Origin: Halorussus sp. MSC15.2
Lineage (GTDB): Archaea > Halobacteriota > Halobacteria > Halobacteriales > Haladaptataceae
Length of the DNA: 64,000 bases
Direction: 5' to 3'
Assembly (NCBI RefSeq): GCF_010747475.1
Contig: NZ_VSLZ01000002.1
Span: 434,001 to 498,000, forward strand
Part shown: positions 35,898 to 45,137 of the stretch, one piece after another
How the letters are laid out: the number at the start of each line of letters is the position of its first letter
How positions within the stretch are numbered: the first letter of the stretch is position 1
Translations under genes and position numbers: made by a program
Notes under the pieces: model-generated
Databases searched by the model: none
Told to the model about the DNA's origin: nothing
The model's input: only the letters and a program-made list of their open reading frames with translations

Positions 35898-36296
35898 ATG
35901 CGCATGGAGTTACGGGTGTGTAAACACTGTTACGAGGGGACCCACGGCAATCCCGAGAAGACGGCCATCACCGAGGACATGGTGGCGCTGGCCGAGCAGA
36001 TACGGGAGTACAAGGACCTCATCGGCATCGACTCGCTGTACGTGACCCGCGTCGCGGAGGGCGACCCCGGCGGCGAAGAGGTCCTCCCAGCGGTCGTCGC
36101 CAGCATCGAGAACGACCGCATCACCCTCACGGACACCCAACTCGTGATGGAGGACGACCAGCAGAACATGCTGGTGTATCCGGAACCCGCCGACATCCTC
36201 GACGTGTTGACCCGGAATCTGGACCAGATTCGCGAGCAGACTAGACAGGACGTGACGGTCGAGTTGTCCGAGGAGTCGGCCGACCTAATCGGGTGA
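35898..36296 (+). CDS. Conserved-looking small protein, unknown function
   Basis: 132 aa from ATG 35898 (MRMELRVCKHCYEGTHGNPE). Cys residues in CKHCYEG could form part of a metal site. The middle (MVALAEQIREYKDLIGIDSLYVTRVAEGD) is helix then strand, followed by ENDRITLTDTQLVMEDDQQN and a C-terminal helix. The first frame-open codons upstream run back to 35619 but read as non-coding. Convergent with the cytochrome b gene of the Fdh operon. No function assigned. Confidence 0.6.
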   Translation: MRMELRVCKHCYEGTHGNPEKTAITEDMVALAEQIREYKDLIGIDSLYVTRVAEGDPGGEEVLPAVVASIENDRITLTDTQLVMEDDQQNMLVYPEPADILDVLTRNLDQIREQTRQDVTVELSEESADLIG

Positions 36297-36334: not shown

Positions 36335-37435
36335 TCAGTCGTCCCCGCTCCCGTCTGCCATCGGCGTCTCGCGGCGCTCGCGGAGTTGCGCCTCGTAGCG
36401 CTTCCGGAGGACGTTGCCGTACATCGAGAGCACCAGACCGACGAACAGGACGAGGATACCGACGTTGATGCCGACCGTCAGGAGCGCGTTGGTCGGCCCG
36501 CCGCCGATAGTGAGTTCGCGCGGCACGGGGTACCCTTCGTCGAAGATGCTCCCGACGAGGACGCTCACGATGCCGACGACGGTCAGGACGCCCATCAGGT
36601 TCGCGGCCCAGTTCCAACTCGGCGAGAGCGTCAGTTGCTCGATGCCGGTCCCCTCGTGACGTTCCTCCTCGATTCGCTCCTCCTCCGTGACGACCACCTC
36701 GTCCTCGACGACTCGGCCCTCCTCGTCGGTGACTACCTCCTCCGTCACGGCCGTCTCCTCGACGACCTTCTCGTCGTGCTGGCCCGGCGTCAAGTCCCGC
36801 GGGACGAACGCCTTGAGTTCGACCGGGTAGAACGCCGGGTGGAACCCGTGTTCGAAGATGTGGAACATCACGCCCATCAGCATGATGACCCCGAGCAGGC
36901 CGTGGAAGGTGACGAACGCCAGCGCCGCGGTCCGGGTCGCCAGATACTGCATCAGGCCGACCTTGTTCCAGATGAGCAGGCCCGACAGCATCAGCAGGAC
37001 GAGTTCGATGGAGAATATCCAGACCACGCCCTTCCCGACGTAACTCAGCAGGGGCACCTCGTCCGCGGAGTAGCCTGCGAACTGGCGGGCGTGGGGGTGG
37101 CGCTCCTCGGCCCGGCCCAGCGCGAACTTCACGTCCTGAATCGCGGCCTCCACGTCTTTCTTCGAGGGCATCGCCGCCTTGACGCCCCGACGACCGCCGG
37201 GCGTGATTATCGTCAGCGTTATCCAGAAGACGACGAGGGCGACCAGTCCCATCCCCGCGAGGCGGTGGACCGCCAGCACGCCGGTGTTGCCCCCCATCAG
37301 CGTGACCAGCCACCAGAGTTCGTCGTTGAACATCACGGCGTACCCCGTGAAGAACAGCGCGAACACGTCGAGCGCCAGCAGCGAGTGGAAGATGGTGGTC
37401 GTTCGCGTGAACTTGCCGTGGTCGAGGTTGGTCAT
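36335..37435 (-). CDS. Formate dehydrogenase-type cytochrome b subunit (FdhI-like)
   Basis: 366 aa, di-haem cytochrome b of the FdnI/DmsC-HybB-like type that passes electrons from the FeS subunit to quinone. The first ~205 residues hold four TM helices with haem-ligand candidates: TTIFHSLLALDVFALFFTGY, VLAVHRLAGMGLVALV, FVTFHGLLGVIMLMGVMFHIFEHGFHP. An insert of ~45 very acidic Val/Glu residues (~215-265) and two further TM helices follow, which FdnI does not have. ATG at 37435 overlaps the upstream stop (ATGA). Last gene of the operon. Confidence 0.75.
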   Translation of the reverse strand: MTNLDHGKFTRTTTIFHSLLALDVFALFFTGYAVMFNDELWWLVTLMGGNTGVLAVHRLAGMGLVALVVFWITLTIITPGGRRGVKAAMPSKKDVEAAIQDVKFALGRAEERHPHARQFAGYSADEVPLLSYVGKGVVWIFSIELVLLMLSGLLIWNKVGLMQYLATRTAALAFVTFHGLLGVIMLMGVMFHIFEHGFHPAFYPVELKAFVPRDLTPGQHDEKVVEETAVTEEVVTDEEGRVVEDEVVVTEEERIEEERHEGTGIEQLTLSPSWNWAANLMGVLTVVGIVSVLVGSIFDEGYPVPRELTIGGGPTNALLTVGINVGILVLFVGLVLSMYGNVLRKRYEAQLRERRETPMADGSGDD

Positions 37436-38061
37436 CGCTCCTCACCTCCGTTTCGCTCGCCGCCGTCGGTGGCGACGGTGTCGCTCGTCCTCCGGTCGGC
37501 CGGTCGCCGCATTCGGTCGGAGAGCTGTCGGAACGCCGCCCAGTGGATGAACACCATCACGAGGATGAACACGCCCATGATGGCGTCGGCGGCGTGGGTG
37601 ATGGCGATGGCCGCGTCGAGCACGGGGACGGTGTTGCCGACCACCCAGTCGGTGCCGACGCCGCCGCCCGAGACGGTGGGCGCGATTCGGAACAGGTTCT
37701 CGAAGAACAGTTCCTGCCCGCCGAACCAGTTGTCGGCCCAGAGGTACGCGATAGCGGTCGCACCGAACGCGACACCGGCCGCGACTGCGACCGCAACGCC
37801 GCCCGTGAGACCCGACCCGTCGTGACCTTCGGTCTCGCGGTCCGGGTCCCGGTCGGGGTCTTCGGGGGCGGTTCGGGCGTCGTCGCCCGCTTGCGTGTCG
37901 TCGCGGCTGGTTCGAGCGTCTTCGCGGTCGGCCTGCGCGGTCTCCGCGTCGGGCCGGGCTTCACCGGTCGCGTCCAAGCGGTCGGACTCGCGCACTCGGT
38001 CGTCGGCCGTTCCGTGTTCGGCCGAGCCGCCACGACTGTCACGCTCGGCGGGGTCGCTCAT
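37432..38061 (-). CDS. Extra small membrane subunit of the Fdh operon
   Basis: 209 aa. About 95 hydrophilic residues, extremely rich in Asp/Arg/Glu, precede two TM helices: GVAVAVAAGVAFGATAIAYLWADNW (~100-125) and ADAIMGVFILVMVFIHWAAF (~160-180). His residues lie at the second helix (ITHAADAIMG and FIHW). It overlaps both neighbours by four bases (ATGA on each side), so it is surely co-expressed. E. coli FdnGHI has no such gene; the FeS subunit here lacks the C-terminal anchor helix of FdnH, so this protein may supply it or bind haem. Function is inferred from the context. Confidence 0.65.
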   Translation of the reverse strand: MSDPAERDSRGGSAEHGTADDRVRESDRLDATGEARPDAETAQADREDARTSRDDTQAGDDARTAPEDPDRDPDRETEGHDGSGLTGGVAVAVAAGVAFGATAIAYLWADNWFGGQELFFENLFRIAPTVSGGGVGTDWVVGNTVPVLDAAIAITHAADAIMGVFILVMVFIHWAAFRQLSDRMRRPADRRTSDTVATDGGERNGGEER

Positions 38062-38753
38062 CCGCCGAACACCTCCGCGTCCTCGCCGAAGATGATGTCC
38101 ATCGCCACGTCGTTGAAGAACACGTCGGCATCGCGGCGTTCGAGTTCGTCCGCTATCTGGTCGGCGCTCCCGACGAGGATGGCGTCGGTCGAACACTCCT
38201 CGGCGCAGGCCGGCCCTTTGCCGGTCTCGGACTGGCGCTCCTCGCACATCGTACACTTGTCCATCACGTTCCCGTTTCCGACTATCTGGGCGCTCCCGTC
38301 GTCGGACTCGGGGAACTGGGGCGCGCCGAACGGGCAGGCCGACAGGCAGTACTGACACCCGACGCAGAGGCTGTCGCGTACGTCCACGAATCCGTCGTCT
38401 TTCTTTATCAGCGAGTCCGTCGGACAGACCGAGACGCACGGGGCGTTCTCGCAGTGGTAACACTGCATCGGGATGGACGTCTCGCCCGGTTTCTTGCCCT
38501 CCTTGAGGGCGCGAGCGCTGTTGGCGTTGAGACCCTGTGCGGCCTCCTGACCCTCCATCATCGTGGCGACGCTGATTCGCTGTTCGTCGCGGGGCACGTC
38601 CCACGTCCGCTTGCACGCGACCACGCACCCGCCGCAGTCGATGCAGGCCTCCACGTCCGGGAAGATGCGCGCGTCCTCGCCCGTACTCATCACGCCGCTT
38701 CGCATGACCTCCTCGCCGGAACCCGACTGGTTCTGTGACTGTTGTTTTGACAT
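38058..38753 (-). CDS. 4Fe-4S ferredoxin-type subunit of formate dehydrogenase (FdhH/FdnH-like)
   Basis: 231 aa electron-transfer subunit with four 4Fe-4S sites. Cys groups are CIDCGGCVVACKRTWD, CYHCENAPCVSVCP, CVGCQYCLSACPFGAP and CTMCEERQSETGKGPACAEEC, as in the DmsB/FdnH family. It carries electrons from the molybdenum subunit to the membrane. No C-terminal TM helix is visible, unlike E. coli FdnH. An extended N-terminus starts MSKQQSQNQSGSGEE with no signal; export would be by hitchhiking on the Tat-bearing large subunit. Starts 12 bases after the large-subunit stop. Confidence 0.9.
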   Translation of the reverse strand: MSKQQSQNQSGSGEEVMRSGVMSTGEDARIFPDVEACIDCGGCVVACKRTWDVPRDEQRISVATMMEGQEAAQGLNANSARALKEGKKPGETSIPMQCYHCENAPCVSVCPTDSLIKKDDGFVDVRDSLCVGCQYCLSACPFGAPQFPESDDGSAQIVGNGNVMDKCTMCEERQSETGKGPACAEECSTDAILVGSADQIADELERRDADVFFNDVAMDIIFGEDAEVFGG

Positions 38754-38764
38754 TGTGTATCACC

Positions 38765-41700
38765 TCATTGCGTGGTTTGGTGGTCGCGCACGTCGAAGTC
38801 CTTCTGCGTGCCGATGCCCTCCCGGTCCTGCGGGAACTCGGCGTCGAAGCCGACCATCTTGCCGTCTTCCCACATGTTCAGGTCCCTGAGTTTCGACTCG
38901 GTCGCCTTCCAGAGTCGCACCATGGCGGGTTTGGTCTCCTGCATCTGGGTCTCGGCGTCGTAGCCCCGCGACGTGACGATGTTCGCGCTGTCGCCGATGG
39001 CGAACGGAGCCATCCCGTCGGGATACTTGTCCTCCAGACTCTTGCCGTGGAAGACCCCGCCCCAGTGGAACGGCAGGAATATCTCCCGCTGGTTGGGTCG
39101 GTGAGTCACGCGGGCCTTCACCAACACGGACCCGCGGTCGGTGGTCTGGACGACCACGAGGTCCCCGCCGTCCACGCCCGCCGAGACGCCGTCCTGATTC
39201 TTGCCTATCTGGGTGGCCTTCTTCGGGTGAATCTCGGCGTACATGTGGGGCTGGAGGTCCGCGAGGAAGACGTTCGAGCGCGATTCGGACCCGCCGCCCT
39301 GATGCTCGACCTGCCGTCCGGTCGTCATGATGGTGTCCATGCCCTGCTGGTTGGCCTTCTTGGTCGCCGTCTTCTGAATCGCGGCGTTGTTCTGGTCGAG
39401 CCGGTAGAAGTTGGTCTGGGTACCGTTCGCGGGCCACTGCTCGACCAGGTCGGGCCGCGGACTCTCGATGGGTTCGCGGTGGACCGGCACCGTGTCGAGG
39501 AAGTTCCACGCCACCCCCCGCGCCCTGCCGCGGCCGGTCGGCGCGTCGGGTTGCTTGGCGTCGTGCTGCTGGTAGTCGGCCGGTTTGATGCCCGACGCCG
39601 CGCCCTTCGGCTTGACGGTGCCGTTCTTACGCATCTGCTGGAGTTTCTTCGCGGTGTCGAGGACCGACTTGTCCTCTCGGAGCGCGTACTCGTACGGCAC
39701 CGAGAGCGCGTCGGGGTTGGTGATGTCCTCGGGCCACACCGTCGAGAAACCGGGGTACTGGGGCACGCCCTGAATCTTCCCCTGTCCGTCCCACCAGTCC
39801 GGACTGTAGGGGGCGCGGAGCATGTCCAGTCCTTTCTCGCCCTGTTGCTGGACCGTGTTCTGGAACGGGTACTGCTTGTCGTCCGGGATGTTGCCCGACT
39901 CGACCATCTCGTTCCACTCCTTCTTCGTCGGCGCTTTCGTCCCCCAGCGAGCGCGGAAGTCCTGCCCGCCCTCTCTGGGGTCCAAATCGTCGCGCCAGAT
40001 GATGGGCGTCCCCGGATGGCCCTCGCCCCAGCAGGGCCACGGCAGTTGCCAGTACTCGCCCTCGACCGGCCCGGACTTGCCTTCGAGGTCCTCCGTGCTG
40101 AAGGCGTAGTCGTACTCGTACTGGCGCTGGAGTCGCTGGGGGTCCTGCTGGTAGCCGATGGTCCGGACCCCGAGGTTTATCTCCTTCAGGCACTGCTCGT
40201 AGGTCGATTTCCCGTTGAACAGTTCCGGCCCGCCGCCCCAGTCGAAGTGTTCGCCGTGGCCCAACTCGGCGGCCAACTCCTGAATTATCTGCATGTCGGT
40301 CTTGGAGTTGTGGCTCGGCGGTCGGACCGGGTTGCGCCACTGGACCGACCGGTGGGAGTTGGTCACGGTGCCGTGGTGTTCGTACTGGCTGGAGGCGGGC
40401 AGGATGATGACGCCGTCGTCGCGCTCGGCCATCACCGACGCCAGCGACGGGAACATGTCCACGACGACCAGCAGGTCGAGGTTCTCCATCGCTTTCTTCT
40501 GCTTGCCCATCTCGCTGATGGAGTTCGCGGAGTGGCCGTCGAACACCGCGGCCCGGAGCTTCGTCGGCTGGTAGAGTTGGGCCTGATTCAGTCGCTCCTC
40601 CTTCGGGAGCGCTCCCTCGAACCACCGGGCGACCGTCAGCCCCTTCTGGAACATCATCGACCGACTCGGGACCTTGGCGTCGCCGACGTTGATGAACGCC
40701 GAGGTGGCCTCGGCGGCTTGGTCCTGCCACTTCTGCTTGGGCATGTTGTCGTACCGGCTGTTGAGGTCCTTGAACGACGTACTCCCGCTCGTCCACGGAC
40801 TCTGGTCCCACACGTCCGCCCAGTAGGACCACGACCGGGCGAGGTTACGCTGTAATAGCCCGGGAGGATGTGGCTGTTCGGCCCGAGGTCGGTCGCCCCC
40901 TGCACGTTCGAGTGGCCCCGCATGACCTGCAGACCGCCGCCCGACCGGGCGGCCGACCCGGTGGCGAGGCTCAGCATCGCGTACGACCGGATGTGCTGGG
41001 TCCCGTTGTTGTGCTGGGTGCCGCCCATCGCCCACTCTATCTGGATGCTGGGCTTGTTCTCGATGACGAGGTCACCGATTTCGCGGATGTCGGCCTTGTC
41101 TATCCACGTGATGTCCGAGACGGTGTCGAGGTCGTACCGGTCGAGTTTGGCCTCCACGTCCGGCCAGCCGTTCACGCGCTCGGAGAGCATCTGCTGGTCG
41201 AGTTCGCCTTGGTCGCGCAGATAGCGCAGGAGCCCCATCATCAGGGCGGTGTCCGTGCCGGGTCGGAGTCGGTAGAAGTGGTCGGCGTGGGCCGCGGTCT
41301 TGGTGAACCGCGGTTCGATGACGACTATCTTCCCCCCGCGCTTCTGGCCTTCGAGGATGTGCTGCATCGCTATCGGGTGGGCCTCCGCGGGGTTCTGCCC
41401 GATGATGATGTCGAGGTCGAAGTTCCGGTAGTCGTTGATGGTGTTGGTCATCGCGCCGTACCCCCACGTGTTCGCCAGCCCCGCGACCGTCGTGGAGTGA
41501 CAGATGCGGGCCTGATGGTCCACGTTGGTCGTCCCGTAGAACGCGGCCAGCTTTCGGAAGGCGTAGGCCTCCTCGTTGGAGTGGTGAGCGCTCCCGAGCC
41601 ACATCACGCTGTCCGGCCCCGACTCCTCGCGGTACTTGTTCAGCTTCTGGCCGACCTCCGACATGGCCTCGTCCCACGACACCTTCTGCCACTCGCCGTT

Positions 41701-42063
41701 GACGAGTTTCAGCGGGTGTTTCAACCGCTTGGGCGAGTGTTCGCTGCCGTAGATGCCCGCGCCCTTCGAGCAGAGCGACCCGTTGTTGACGGGATGCTCG
41801 TGCCACGGTTCCTGTCCGACGAAGGCGTCGCCCTTGCGCTCGCCCTTGAATCCGCAACCCACCGCGCAGAAGTTGCAGATGGTCTTGACCGTCTCGGTCT
41901 GGCCGAGCGCTCCTTCCGGTTCCTCCTCACCCCCGTCGTCCTGCGCGAGTACTTGTCCCGTTGCGCTACCACCGAGTGCGACTGCCCCCGCCAGCGCGCT
42001 CGCCTTCACGAACGAACGCCTGTCGAGGTCGAGTGAAACTGGTTCCGTTGGTTCAGTACTCAT
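38765..42063 (-). pseudogene. Formate dehydrogenase-type molybdopterin oxidoreductase, large subunit, interrupted by a -1 frameshift
   Basis: About 1,099 aa when repaired. A Tat signal is visible (LDRRSFVKASALAGAVALGG), then the N-terminal 4Fe-4S motif ICNFCAVGCGFKGERKGDAF with the fourth Cys in NNGSLCSKGAG. The metal ligand Cys is in ARICHSTTVAGLANTWGYGAMTN, and DLDIIIGQNPAEAHP follows, as in FdnG/FdhG with Cys in the place of selenocysteine. The break is near 40847: ILPGYYS continues as NLARSWSYWADVWDQ after one missing base. The rest matches the MopB and C-terminal molybdopterin-binding domains (VTHRPNQREIFLPFHWGG). Formate is the likely substrate by family, but other small molecules are possible. 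Head of a four-gene operon. Confidence 0.85.
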
Positions 42064-42145: not shown

Positions 42146-42172
42146 GTGGTGATGACAACTGTTCATCACTAC
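42146..42172. promoter_or_regulatory. Inverted repeat between the divergent Fdh and HdrA/FlpD-like operons
   Basis: GTGGTGATGA and TCATCACTAC are 10-base arms with one mismatch around a 7-base spacer. On the minus strand a TATA-like CTTTAATG lies about 10 bases away in the fdh promoter direction. Its place suggests one regulator for both operons. Confidence 0.45.
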
Positions 42173-42249: not shown

Positions 42250-44469
42250 ATGAAGACGGGGGCGTTCGTCTGCTCGTGCGGGGAAACGTGCGACGTAGAC
42301 CTCGAAGGGGTACGAGAGGGCGTCGAAGGGGTGGACGTGGTGGCGAGTTCGCGCCTGCTCTGCGAGGACGGACTCGCGGCCATGGAGCAGGTCGTCGAGG
42401 AGTACGAACTCGACCAGTTCGTCGTGACCGCCTCGGAGTCGCGCTGTAAGCGGAAGTTCCGCGAGTTCGCGGTCGAGAAGGGACTCCACCCGGAGGCCGC
42501 GGCGTTCGTGGACCACCGCGAGGGCGCGGGATGGGTCCACGACGAACCCGCGGCGACCGAGAAGACCGCCAGACTGCTCAACGCGAGGCGGGCCGCACTG
42601 GATGAGGAGGCCGTCTCCCGGTCGGTCTCTCGCGAGGCGGGCAACTCGGTCGCGGTCGTCGGCGACGCCGAGACCGCGGCCGCGCTGGCCGACACCGCCG
42701 ACGTGACGCTGGTCGCGGACGGCCGGGAGTTCGCCGACACCGACGCCGACCTCGACGGCGTGACCGTCGAGCGCGGGCGCGTGGTCGGGGTCGAGGGGCG
42801 CTACGGCGACTTCGAAATCGCGCTCGAAGCGCACGTGACCGAGGACTGCATCGGGTGCATGGAGTGCGTCCGGAAAGGTCCCGACGACGGCGTCACCCGA
42901 TTCCCGGTCGATATCTCGCCGGAGGCCGCGGCCGCGGCGACCGGCGACTCCCCGGCGGGAGAGGACGGCGCGGTCGGGGACGACCCGACCGCCGCCGACG
43001 GCGGGACCCCCGAGTGGGTCGAGTGCTGCCCGACCGACGCCATCGAACTCGGGGGCGTCGAGCGGACGATAGCGGCCGACCAAGTGGTGCATCCGGGCGC
43101 GGACCGCGAGACGAGGGGCGGGCGCGTCGGGTTCTACACCGGTCCCGTGGACGCGGCGACCGTCGCGGCGGTCGAGGACCTGCTCGGCGGCGTCGAGAAG
43201 CCCAAACACCTCGACCTCGACATGGACGTGTGCGCGTCGGGCGAATCGAGCCAGATGGGGTGCAACGAGTGCGTGGAGGCCTGCCCCCACGGCGCGGTCG
43301 AGCGCCCGCGAATCGACGAGGTCGAGTTCGACGAGGTGGCCTGTCAGGACTGTGGGGCCTGCACGAGCGCGTGCCCGACGGGTGCGACCAAACTCCGAGA
43401 GCCCTCGAACCGCCGCGTCGCGCGCGAAGTCGAGGCCCTGCTGGAGGAACCCGACTCCGGCGGATGGCTGTTCGGCGGGAGCGACCCCATCGGCGAGCAG
43501 GTCGTGGCGTTCGTCTGCTCGGAGCGCGCCCGGCGCACGCTCCGACAGTACGGCCGCGACGCGACGGTCGAAGGCGCGGAGTTCGAATATCATCCCATCC
43601 TGCCGGTGTCGGTGCCGTGCGCCGACGCGGTGGGCGAGGCCCACGCGATGCACGCGCTGGCGGCCGGTGCCGACGGCGTCGCGGTGGTCGGGTGCGGCGG
43701 CGACTGCCGGCACTCCGGGCCGGACCCGAAGGCCGAACTCGTGGCCCGACTGAATCGCGCGTCCGCCGACCTCGGACTCGGCGAGCGCGCGACCTTCCTC
43801 GCGCCCGACCCCGACGACGCCGCGGGGTTCGCCGAGTCGCTGGACGAGTTCGTCGACGGTCTCGACGAGTCGCCGATTCCGGCGGGCGAGTACGAGGCGA
43901 CCGGGGGCATCGACGACGAGGGCCGACCGAACCCCGAGTTCGACAGTCACGGCTGGACCTTAGAGAGCGTCCGGGCGATTCTGGACCACGCGGACCCCGA
44001 GCGCGAGGTGATTCGCGGACTCAAGGACTTCGGCCGGATGGCGGTCAGCGACGACTGCGCGCTGACGCCGACCTGCACGAACCTCTGCCCGACCGACGCG
44101 ATTCGGCGGCGCGAGGGGAATCTGGAGTTCAACCACGAGCGGTGCGTCAACTGCGGCCTCTGCGAGGAGGGGTGTCCCGAGACCGCCATCGAGATGCGGG
44201 ACGGACTGGACCTGTCGCTCCTGCCGGAGAACCGCGAGCGACCACCGGACGACGGGGACGGCCGACCCGACGACCCAGCGTGGACGACGGTGATGGAGGG
44301 CGAGATGCGCGAGTGCGTCCGATGTGGCAAGCCCTTCACCAGCGAGGCGTCGGCCGAGAAAATCGAGGGCGAGGTCGGCGGGATGGTGGCCGGACTCGCG
44401 CCGGACTCGGACCACAGCGTCTTCGAATACTGCGGCGACTGCCGCGCCAGACTCCTCTTCGAGGGGTGA
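42250..44469 (+). CDS. HdrA/FlpD-like multi-cluster iron-sulfur protein
   Basis: 739 aa. N-terminal part (TGAFVCSCGETCDVDLEGVR, then VVASSRLLCEDGLAAMEQ) resembles HdrA. Next come CIGCMECVRKG with ECCPTDAI, CNECVEACPHGAVE and CQDCGACTSACPTGAT ferredoxin motifs. Residues ~420-520 (VVAFVCSERARRTLRQYG, VPCADAVGEAHAMHALAAGADGV, VGCGGDCRHSG) match the FlpD/MvhD hydrogenase iron-sulfur subunit. A further ferredoxin (CTNLCPTDAI, CVNCGLCEEGCPETAI) and a C-terminal zinc-finger-like CVRCGKPF...CGDC follow. A reduced FAD-like segment (VAVVGDAETAAALADT) is present. Likely an electron-transfer or bifurcating hub with the adjacent Fdh. ATG 42250 starts the conserved region. Confidence 0.8.
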   Translation: MKTGAFVCSCGETCDVDLEGVREGVEGVDVVASSRLLCEDGLAAMEQVVEEYELDQFVVTASESRCKRKFREFAVEKGLHPEAAAFVDHREGAGWVHDEPAATEKTARLLNARRAALDEEAVSRSVSREAGNSVAVVGDAETAAALADTADVTLVADGREFADTDADLDGVTVERGRVVGVEGRYGDFEIALEAHVTEDCIGCMECVRKGPDDGVTRFPVDISPEAAAAATGDSPAGEDGAVGDDPTAADGGTPEWVECCPTDAIELGGVERTIAADQVVHPGADRETRGGRVGFYTGPVDAATVAAVEDLLGGVEKPKHLDLDMDVCASGESSQMGCNECVEACPHGAVERPRIDEVEFDEVACQDCGACTSACPTGATKLREPSNRRVAREVEALLEEPDSGGWLFGGSDPIGEQVVAFVCSERARRTLRQYGRDATVEGAEFEYHPILPVSVPCADAVGEAHAMHALAAGADGVAVVGCGGDCRHSGPDPKAELVARLNRASADLGLGERATFLAPDPDDAAGFAESLDEFVDGLDESPIPAGEYEATGGIDDEGRPNPEFDSHGWTLESVRAILDHADPEREVIRGLKDFGRMAVSDDCALTPTCTNLCPTDAIRRREGNLEFNHERCVNCGLCEEGCPETAIEMRDGLDLSLLPENRERPPDDGDGRPDDPAWTTVMEGEMRECVRCGKPFTSEASAEKIEGEVGGMVAGLAPDSDHSVFEYCGDCRARLLFEG

Positions 44470-44510: not shown

Positions 44511-45137
44511 ATGGACGAACGCCAACTCTACGACGCGCGCATCGAACTCCTCAACTACGCCATCGACACCTTCTGGGACACCCCGAGGGAGTCGTTCGTG
44601 GCGAACCTGCTGGAGGGCGAGATTCGGATACCGGGCGACGAAGTGAATCCCGCGATGGACGAGGGGTTCGCGCAACTGGAACGGTTCGTCGAGGCCAACG
44701 AGGGCCGGTCGGTCGAAGACGTGCAGGACGAACTGGCGACCGAGTTCACTCGGGTCTTCGTCGGCCCGCGCCCGCCCGTCCTCGCGCACGAGACGTACTA
44801 CCGAGAGGACGAGGACTTCCTCGGCGAGGGACTGGCGGCGGTGTCGGCGAGTTACGCCGCGGCCGGGTGGTCGCCGCCGGAGGCGTACCCCGAGGAGGAC
44901 GACCACCTCGCCGTCGAGTTGGCGTTCCTCCGCTATCTGGTGGACCGCCAGCGCGCGGGCGACGAGGAGACGTTCGGCTACGAGCGCGTCTTTCTGGACG
45001 AACACCTCCTGCACTGGGCGGACGCGTTCGCCGAGGACGTGCTGGACGAGACCGACGAACCGTTCTACCGGGCCGGGGCGAACGTCGTCGCGGGCCTCGC
45101 CGAGTTCGAGGACGAACTGGTCGCACAGATGGTCTGA
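44511..45137 (+). CDS. TorD/DmsD-family molybdoenzyme chaperone
   Basis: 208 aa, all-helical. Typical TorD features: LYDARIELLNYAIDTFWDTP, LATEFTRVFVGPRPPVLAHETYYR (the conserved E(Y/F)xRxF-like core), YAAAGWSPPEAYPEEDDHLAVELAFLRYLV and FLDEHLLHWADAFAEDV. Such chaperones hold the large subunit until the Mo cofactor and FeS clusters are inserted and guard the Tat signal. Lies 41 bases after the FeS protein gene and opposite the Tat-bearing Fdh large subunit, its probable client. Confidence 0.85.
   Translation: MDERQLYDARIELLNYAIDTFWDTPRESFVANLLEGEIRIPGDEVNPAMDEGFAQLERFVEANEGRSVEDVQDELATEFTRVFVGPRPPVLAHETYYREDEDFLGEGLAAVSASYAAAGWSPPEAYPEEDDHLAVELAFLRYLVDRQRAGDEETFGYERVFLDEHLLHWADAFAEDVLDETDEPFYRAGANVVAGLAEFEDELVAQMV

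Follow-up and report, generated by a model that had tools for sequence, protein, structure and literature searches.

The 64,000-nucleotide stretch of the Halorussus sp. MSC15.2 genome analysed here (contig NZ_VSLZ01000002.1, positions 434,001 to 498,000; hereafter the window) encodes a polyferredoxin related to HdrA and FlpD, which probably serves as a cytoplasmic maturation factor for molybdenum formate dehydrogenases (Fdh) exported by the twin-arginine translocation (Tat) pathway and for a few related enzymes, acting beside a TorD-type chaperone. As judged from genes and sequence alone, maturation is its most likely role. The family to which the protein belongs is genuine, conserved and widespread, and no name for it appeared in the sources searched; the constant of this family's gene neighbourhood is of the maturation type.

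Architecture and cysteine conservation

The polyferredoxin gene occurs as one copy in its own genome (genome search), and H. aquaticus encodes the same protein at 94% identity. The chain is built as follows:

42250..44469, + strand: HdrA/FlpD-like polyferredoxin, whole open reading frame (ORF), 739 residues; ATG at 42250, TGA ending at 44469
42250..42609, + strand: HdrA N-terminal-like domain, residues 1-120; phmmer and profile matches to HdrA chains, Foldseek
42631..42837, + strand: Rossmann-like remnant of the flavin adenine dinucleotide (FAD) domain, residues 128-196, GDAETA replacing GxGxxG; alignments
42838..43074, + strand: single-cluster ferredoxin-like insert, C200/C203/C206/C260; alignment
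43219..43401, + strand: dicluster ferredoxin, residues 324-384, C328-x9-C338-x2-C341-x3-C345 and C365-x2-C368-x2-C371-x3-C375; invariant cysteines
43501..43863, + strand: FlpD/MvhD-like domain, residues 418-538, C423, C457, C482, C486; PF02662 and structural matches to MvhD chains
44044..44199, + strand: second ferredoxin, residues 599-650, C603, T606 (Cys in other clades), C609, C613, C632, C635, C638, C642
44296..44466, + strand: Cx2C...Cx2C tail, residues 683-739, C689/C692/C728/C731, putative zinc or iron site

A sequence-only reading of the window had described an HdrA-like start, several ferredoxin modules, an FlpD/MvhD domain and a zinc-finger tail fused in one chain with a reduced FAD-binding part, and every one of these modules was found in the single 739-residue ORF; the paired Cx2C motifs of the tail (689-731) are present, and zinc as their metal is putative. 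The HdrA N-terminal cluster domain is recognised on both sequence and fold: residues 2-126 gave a phmmer match, and the six best Foldseek matches of a model of residues 1-195 were all HdrA (E 5e-7 to 7e-6; mean predicted local distance difference test score, pLDDT, 57.5, dependable only to about residue 120). PF02662 scored 60.5 bits over residues 418-538 against a cut-off of 22.3, with all four FlpD cysteines retained, and dicluster ferredoxin profiles matched residues 336-379 and 599-650. Structure prediction, which the same reading had proposed as a check, yielded a poor whole-chain AlphaFold2 (AF2) model (pLDDT 45.1, used only for the HdrA N-domain and MvhD matches), whose structural matches were HdrA chains first, followed by MvhD chains.

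The order of HdrA N-domain, C-terminal ferredoxin and MvhD is that of the methanogen HdrA2/type Ia HdrA. The HdrA-MvhD fusion is already known as type Ia HdrA (PMC12054007 and PMC9012536) and is therefore not itself new. However, unlike HdrA2/type Ia HdrA, the polyferredoxin has lost the FAD motif and much of the domain that carried it, carries an extra ferredoxin and the four-cysteine tail, and has no HdrB scoring above cut-off in its own genome (TIGR03288, 21 bits versus 345). About 215 residues separate its N-domain from the C-terminal ferredoxin, compared with about 450 in HdrA; no intact GxGxxG FAD-binding domain of the thioredoxin-reductase type was found in the protein, about half of the domain length being gone. 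The full-length HdrA models were all below cut-off, including the best NCBIfam match of the protein (NF040770, 111.8 versus 1100 bits; NF041891, 79.5 versus 1300; NF041778, 73.8 versus 1400). On the strength of the lost FAD site, the HdrA scores and the HdrB result, both electron bifurcation and a new type of Hdr complex were rejected.

In an alignment of 84 sequences (the window, 56 other haloarchaeal, 17 other archaeal and 10 bacterial), 84/84 retain all eight cysteines in the first dicluster ferredoxin, seven in the second and four in the tail. The eighth position of the second ferredoxin (T606) is threonine in the window and in 52/52 sequences of the main haloarchaeal group, which comprises the Fdh-, II-, Cu- and Arr-type sequences, and cysteine in the remaining 31/31. 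The FlpD cysteines are lost in all ten bacteria and in 4/4 Hds-type haloarchaea, and are patchy in the 17 other archaea (C423 in 11, C457 in 13, C482 in 13 and C486 in 5). The single-cluster insert is absent from 8/10 bacterial homologues, and only seven of 83 sequences, five of them bacterial, have even a loose G-x-G-x-x-[GA] match within the Rossmann stretch (the window, which lacks it, is not counted). The invariance of the ferredoxin and tail cysteines, while the FlpD cysteines and GxGxxG decay, counts for a maturation role, and we read the polyferredoxin as an HdrA2-like scaffold apparently decaying slowly around a ferredoxin-plus-tail core. One non-halobacterial archaeal member (L102) still has VGGGAVG at the lost FAD motif and may be an intermediate between HdrA and the polyferredoxin family. 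In a quick tree, unrooted and with long branches, each group except haloFdh formed one side of a branch.

Gene neighbourhoods within and beyond Halobacteria

Among 391 Halobacteria genomes, 106 encode the polyferredoxin (E 1e-30 or better) and 89 encode FdhA (matches to an intact FdhA as query at E 1e-200 or better, more distant Fdh-like enzymes being uncounted); the polyferredoxin is present in 89/89 of the latter, 17 genomes encode it but not that FdhA, and 285 lack both. It lies within 1.5 kb of FdhA at 84 of 93 FdhA places, head-to-head in all 84. Five of the other nine are 1.6-3.7 kb from the listed polyferredoxin match and four are far off; in three of the five, the listed match begins only at about residue 249-255, and the real distance is hence shorter. 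The torD gene is directly adjacent on the same strand in 37/39 loci (L001-L039, a set that takes in the window itself and in which the L016 and L035 proteins are identical). These genome surveys rule out a one-off haloarchaeal fusion. The kinship with HdrA/FlpD and the company of Fdh, on which the sequence-only reading had staked itself, both hold, whereas its emphasis on finding such a protein in a halophile does not, because the gene is widespread in Halobacteria and the fusion order is known from type Ia HdrA and HdrA2.

Nineteen further loci (L047-L063, L066 and L067) were read from the 17 genomes without that FdhA plus G360. In eight of them, an FdhA of a second type, with 41-44% identity to the query, lies 1.0-6.2 kb away (L047, L049, L050, L051, L054, L056, L059, L060), and two contain a full fdhA-fdhB-cytochrome b-torD-polyferredoxin operon with a divergent family member (L066 and L067, 33-34% identical). 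In L048, L053, L057 and L062, the order is PhsA/ArrA-like complex iron-sulfur molybdoenzyme, iron-sulfur protein, NrfD, TorD, polyferredoxin, ApbC-like and MobA-like; the stretch read of L052 contains only TorD, polyferredoxin and ApbC-like. Natronorubrum bangense (L041) has a PhsA/ArrA-like locus adjoining arsD and arsA, with the enzyme, the iron-sulfur protein, NrfD, TorD and the polyferredoxin; this enzyme reached no NCBIfam cut-off (best PhsA, 192.7 bits). Fdh as the only partner is ruled out by the five PhsA/ArrA-like operons (L041, L048, L053, L057, L062) and is also countered by L055, L058, L061 and L063, with no molybdoenzyme in the stretch read. That the polyferredoxin accompanies a different enzyme of the PhsA/ArrA type together with ApbC/MobA-like genes counts for a role in maturation. 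An SCO-like gene was also seen near the copies in L058 and L063 (gene names assigned by eye).

Among 392 Halobacteriota genomes, 57 matched the polyferredoxin profile, and 36 of these are outside Halobacteria, mostly with homologues of about 660-730 residues matched end to end. Of the loci fetched from 18 of these 36 genomes, 16 have TorD as the immediate same-strand neighbour, and L107 has it next to the gene but on the opposite strand; in L110 it was not seen. Twelve have an FdhA-like gene no more than 2.5 kb away, and no molybdoenzyme appears in the stretch read in L106, L109, L115, L119 and L120. Since several TorD-bearing loci show no molybdoenzyme, the polyferredoxin-TorD pair is at least as constant as the polyferredoxin-Fdh pair. 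FdhD-, MobA- or MoeA-like genes lie near the polyferredoxin in L112 and L117.

In bacteria, tblastn matched residues 304-738 of the window polyferredoxin to the 4Fe-4S protein of FDH3/TorD operons, and a Variovorax homologue as query matched 81 proteobacterial plasmid records, mostly near-copies (47 Pseudosulfitobacter). Eleven bacterial records were opened, nine of them annotated (Variovorax, two Sagittula, Pseudosulfitobacter, Diaphorobacter, Microvirga, Sinorhizobium, Bradyrhizobium and Sulfitobacter); all nine contain FdhA, TorD, DUF3306 and a small Fdh/Tat protein, and eight contain DUF3305. The Halomonas and Methylobacterium records were unannotated; the latter gave a Tat-bearing FdhA fragment, and the former was not used further. 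ApbC/Mrp lies near the homologue in both Sagittula, Sulfitobacter and Pseudosulfitobacter, and MobA, MoeA or FdhD in Diaphorobacter, Variovorax and Microvirga. A 2015 survey of NarJ-type chaperones describes TorD-fdh operons that include hypothetical ferredoxins, as well as related ones containing DUF3305/3306 (PMC4464133).

The window polyferredoxin is, by chain-long homology, invariant ferredoxin and tail cysteines, and TorD and exported-Fdh neighbours, a homologue and apparent member of the family of "4Fe-4S binding proteins" of proteobacterial FDH3/TorD operons (DUF3305, DUF3306, FdhX), sharing their architecture and the company of TorD and Fdh3AB. In contrast to the window protein, the proteobacterial members lack the FlpD cysteines and, in most cases, the single-cluster insert, and their loci carry DUF3305/3306 and in some cases FdhD, which the haloarchaeal cassette lacks. 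Literature searches combining haloarchaeal Fdh, FlpD, HdrA and TorD; TorD, HdrA, Fdh and molybdopterin; or DUF3305/3306 and Fdh found no functional description of the polyferredoxin, as judged from the papers listed.

Around the polyferredoxin gene, the window contains the following features:

44511..45137, + strand: TorD/NarJ-like chaperone, next gene, same direction as the polyferredoxin; PF02613, 96.7 bits
38765..42063, - strand: FdhA-like molybdoenzyme with Tat signal and RICH active-site Cys-His, split by a frameshift into ORFs 40654-42063 and 38765-41035
38058..38753, - strand: FdhB-like iron-sulfur subunit (FDH3 beta type, under its cut-off)
36335..37435, - strand: cytochrome b membrane anchor (FdhC-like); PF01292, 65.7 bits; hydropathy maximum 2.64
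35898..36296, + strand: unnamed 132-residue protein with an N-terminal Cx2C ("HaloSmall")

The Fdh and TorD neighbours named in the sequence-only reading are thus in place, with fdhA, fdhB and cytochrome b on the strand opposite to the polyferredoxin in a head-to-head arrangement. The active-site Cys-His of haloarchaeal FdhA (DHQARICHSTTV, RICH motif) is shared with the bacterial and other archaeal partners read, and the same cofactor chemistry is therefore likely. Formate is the presumed FdhA substrate; no FdhA tested, including proteobacterial FDH3 (Variovorax, 475.3 bits), reaches the TIGR01591 equivalog cut-off (666.25 bits; intact relative, 445.6). The fdhA frameshift lies near 40.85 kb in the assembly; fdhA is one intact ORF in H. 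aquaticus and H. salinisoli, and a local alignment to the former has one gap. The frameshift may be a genuine lesion or a sequencing error. Between the divergent fdhA and polyferredoxin genes, a perfect 7-bp inverted repeat with a 7-bp spacer occupies 42149-42169 (allowing up to 2 mismatches, the number expected in the window is 0.10); it was dropped as a candidate operator, as it was not found upstream of the polyferredoxin in the related loci read.

Probable maturation role and competing readings

A twin-arginine signal was found in 49/51 catalytic partners with a visible N-terminus (by our own pattern rather than a trained predictor), the two exceptions being a separate signal-less Fdh in Variovorax and an interrupted gene in L114. 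The polyferredoxin itself is acidic and has no signal and no membrane segment (maximum 19-residue hydropathy 1.21), and should therefore be cytoplasmic. A role before export fits, because the mature enzyme is outside while the polyferredoxin would stay in the cytoplasm. In the proposed mechanism, TorD would hold the apo-catalytic subunit and its signal peptide, and the polyferredoxin would dock on this pair, with the four-cysteine tail as a candidate docking element. Before export, the two dicluster ferredoxins could then donate or rebuild [4Fe-4S] clusters, or supply the electrons that cofactor insertion needs. The HdrA N-domain and FlpD domain may be the inherited scaffold of an HdrA2-like ancestor, and because the FAD domain of that ancestor has been cut down, the polyferredoxin should not bifurcate electrons.

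By analogy of function, the polyferredoxin resembles NapF, a cytoplasmic protein with several clusters whose gene accompanies those of a chaperone and a molybdoenzyme exported by Tat. A review describes NapF as cytosolic, bound to NapA, bearing four labile clusters and needed for iron-sulfur reconstitution of NapA, with napF mutant effects mixed between species (PMC10609526). The window protein is not a NapF member (TIGR00402, 38.9 versus 102.2 bits). To our knowledge, NapF has no HdrA or FlpD part. FdhE, a Cx2C rubredoxin-like protein needed for periplasmic Fdh only, may work in a similar way, having paired Cx2C motifs and a link with exported Fdh in common with the polyferredoxin; it is not known to contain ferredoxin modules.

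Several observations weigh against maturation. The strongest are the FlpD site, all four cysteines of which are retained in 52/52 main haloarchaeal sequences, so that electron transfer there may still matter in this group, and the copies without TorD or enzyme nearby: in L058 and L063, the polyferredoxin has a copper P-type ATPase as its neighbour, and about 19 kb contained no TorD and no molybdoenzyme. The haloII group comprises ten loci; six have TorD at a distance of 5.9-8.0 kb, and in four it was not seen. Gene neighbourhood alone cannot separate maturation from regulation, and the low confidence of the whole-chain model (pLDDT 45) was also counted on this side. Finally, HydN and YsaA are ferredoxin-like helpers of a formate dehydrogenase, and the abstract reporting them ends by favouring electron-partner roles (PMC6004506), a point for the electron-transfer alternative.

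In that alternative, close to the unusual electron route suggested by the sequence-only reading, the polyferredoxin would be a cytoplasmic redox partner exchanging electrons with the Fdh system, for example passing formate electrons via FlpD to a cytoplasmic acceptor. The head-to-head arrangement with Fdh, the conserved FlpD site of the main haloarchaeal group and the several iron-sulfur clusters indicated by the cysteine count all speak for it, and FlpD links Fdh to Hdr in methanogens. However, the catalytic subunit is Tat-exported and membrane-anchored, which would place it out of reach of a cytoplasmic protein after export, and the FAD site needed for bifurcation is lost from the truncated domain. 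Bacteria and Hds-type haloarchaea have lost the FlpD cysteines yet retain the TorD/Fdh gene company, HdrB is missing above cut-off, and the polyferredoxin also accompanies a non-Fdh enzyme. Electron exchange is therefore disfavoured and appears unlikely.

The polyferredoxin could instead be a redox or iron-sulfur quality-control sensor, reading cluster status or oxygen and gating TorD release and export while delivering nothing. Its many clusters, the absence of a recognisable catalytic site and its place next to a proofreading chaperone would suit such a function, but no observation points to it specifically, the 15 invariant ferredoxin cysteines exceed what a sensor needs, and the ApbC/MobA company points to cofactor supply, making it less probable still than electron exchange. 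Degrading HdrA/FlpD features might suggest a relic with little function co-transferred with the cassette, which is very improbable given cysteines invariant across two domains of life and the presence of the gene in every FdhA-bearing Halobacteria genome surveyed.

FdhD, FdhE and the 132-residue companion

FdhD is described as a sulfurtransferase critical for active E. coli formate dehydrogenases, and its proximity to fdh operons has some archaeal exceptions (PMC10609526). FdhD (PF02634) had no match in the 391 Halobacteria genomes, 89 of them with this Fdh, nor in 42 selected ones, in a search that was positive in 8/14 control genomes; a strongly diverged haloarchaeal FdhD could escape one profile. 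It was found in 29/30 non-halobacterial genomes carrying the polyferredoxin (30 of 36 searched). FdhE (PF04216) had no match in 42/42 Halobacteria searched, the own genome included, with a positive E. coli control. A literature search on haloarchaeal FdhD listed nothing that looked relevant.

The 132-residue protein, which gave no Pfam or NCBIfam match over residues 4-132, was surveyed in 80 hand-chosen genomes, 40 with FdhA and 40 without polyferredoxin. It occurs in 40/40 of the former at an identity of at least 66%, its gene lying within 12 kb of the polyferredoxin in 37/40, and in 8/40 of the latter only as a 40-52% relative; it was not found in the bacterial and other archaeal loci read. 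The protein is a candidate for the missing haloarchaeal maturation step. A tentative extension is that Halobacteria mature molybdenum Fdh without FdhD and FdhE, with the polyferredoxin, TorD and the 132-residue protein forming a replacement machinery that might supply clusters and possibly the sulfido ligand, a bifurcation scaffold thus having been recruited for cofactor insertion; we regard this as possible but doubtful.

The absence of FdhD matches makes a question testable, namely how the Fdh molybdenum is sulfurated without the usual sulfurtransferase. If the maturation role is correct, many proteins that now carry only the annotation "hydrogenase iron-sulfur subunit" or "4Fe-4S binding protein" could be assigned a function as dedicated helpers of exported molybdoenzymes, and an electron-bifurcation scaffold would have been reused for enzyme assembly.

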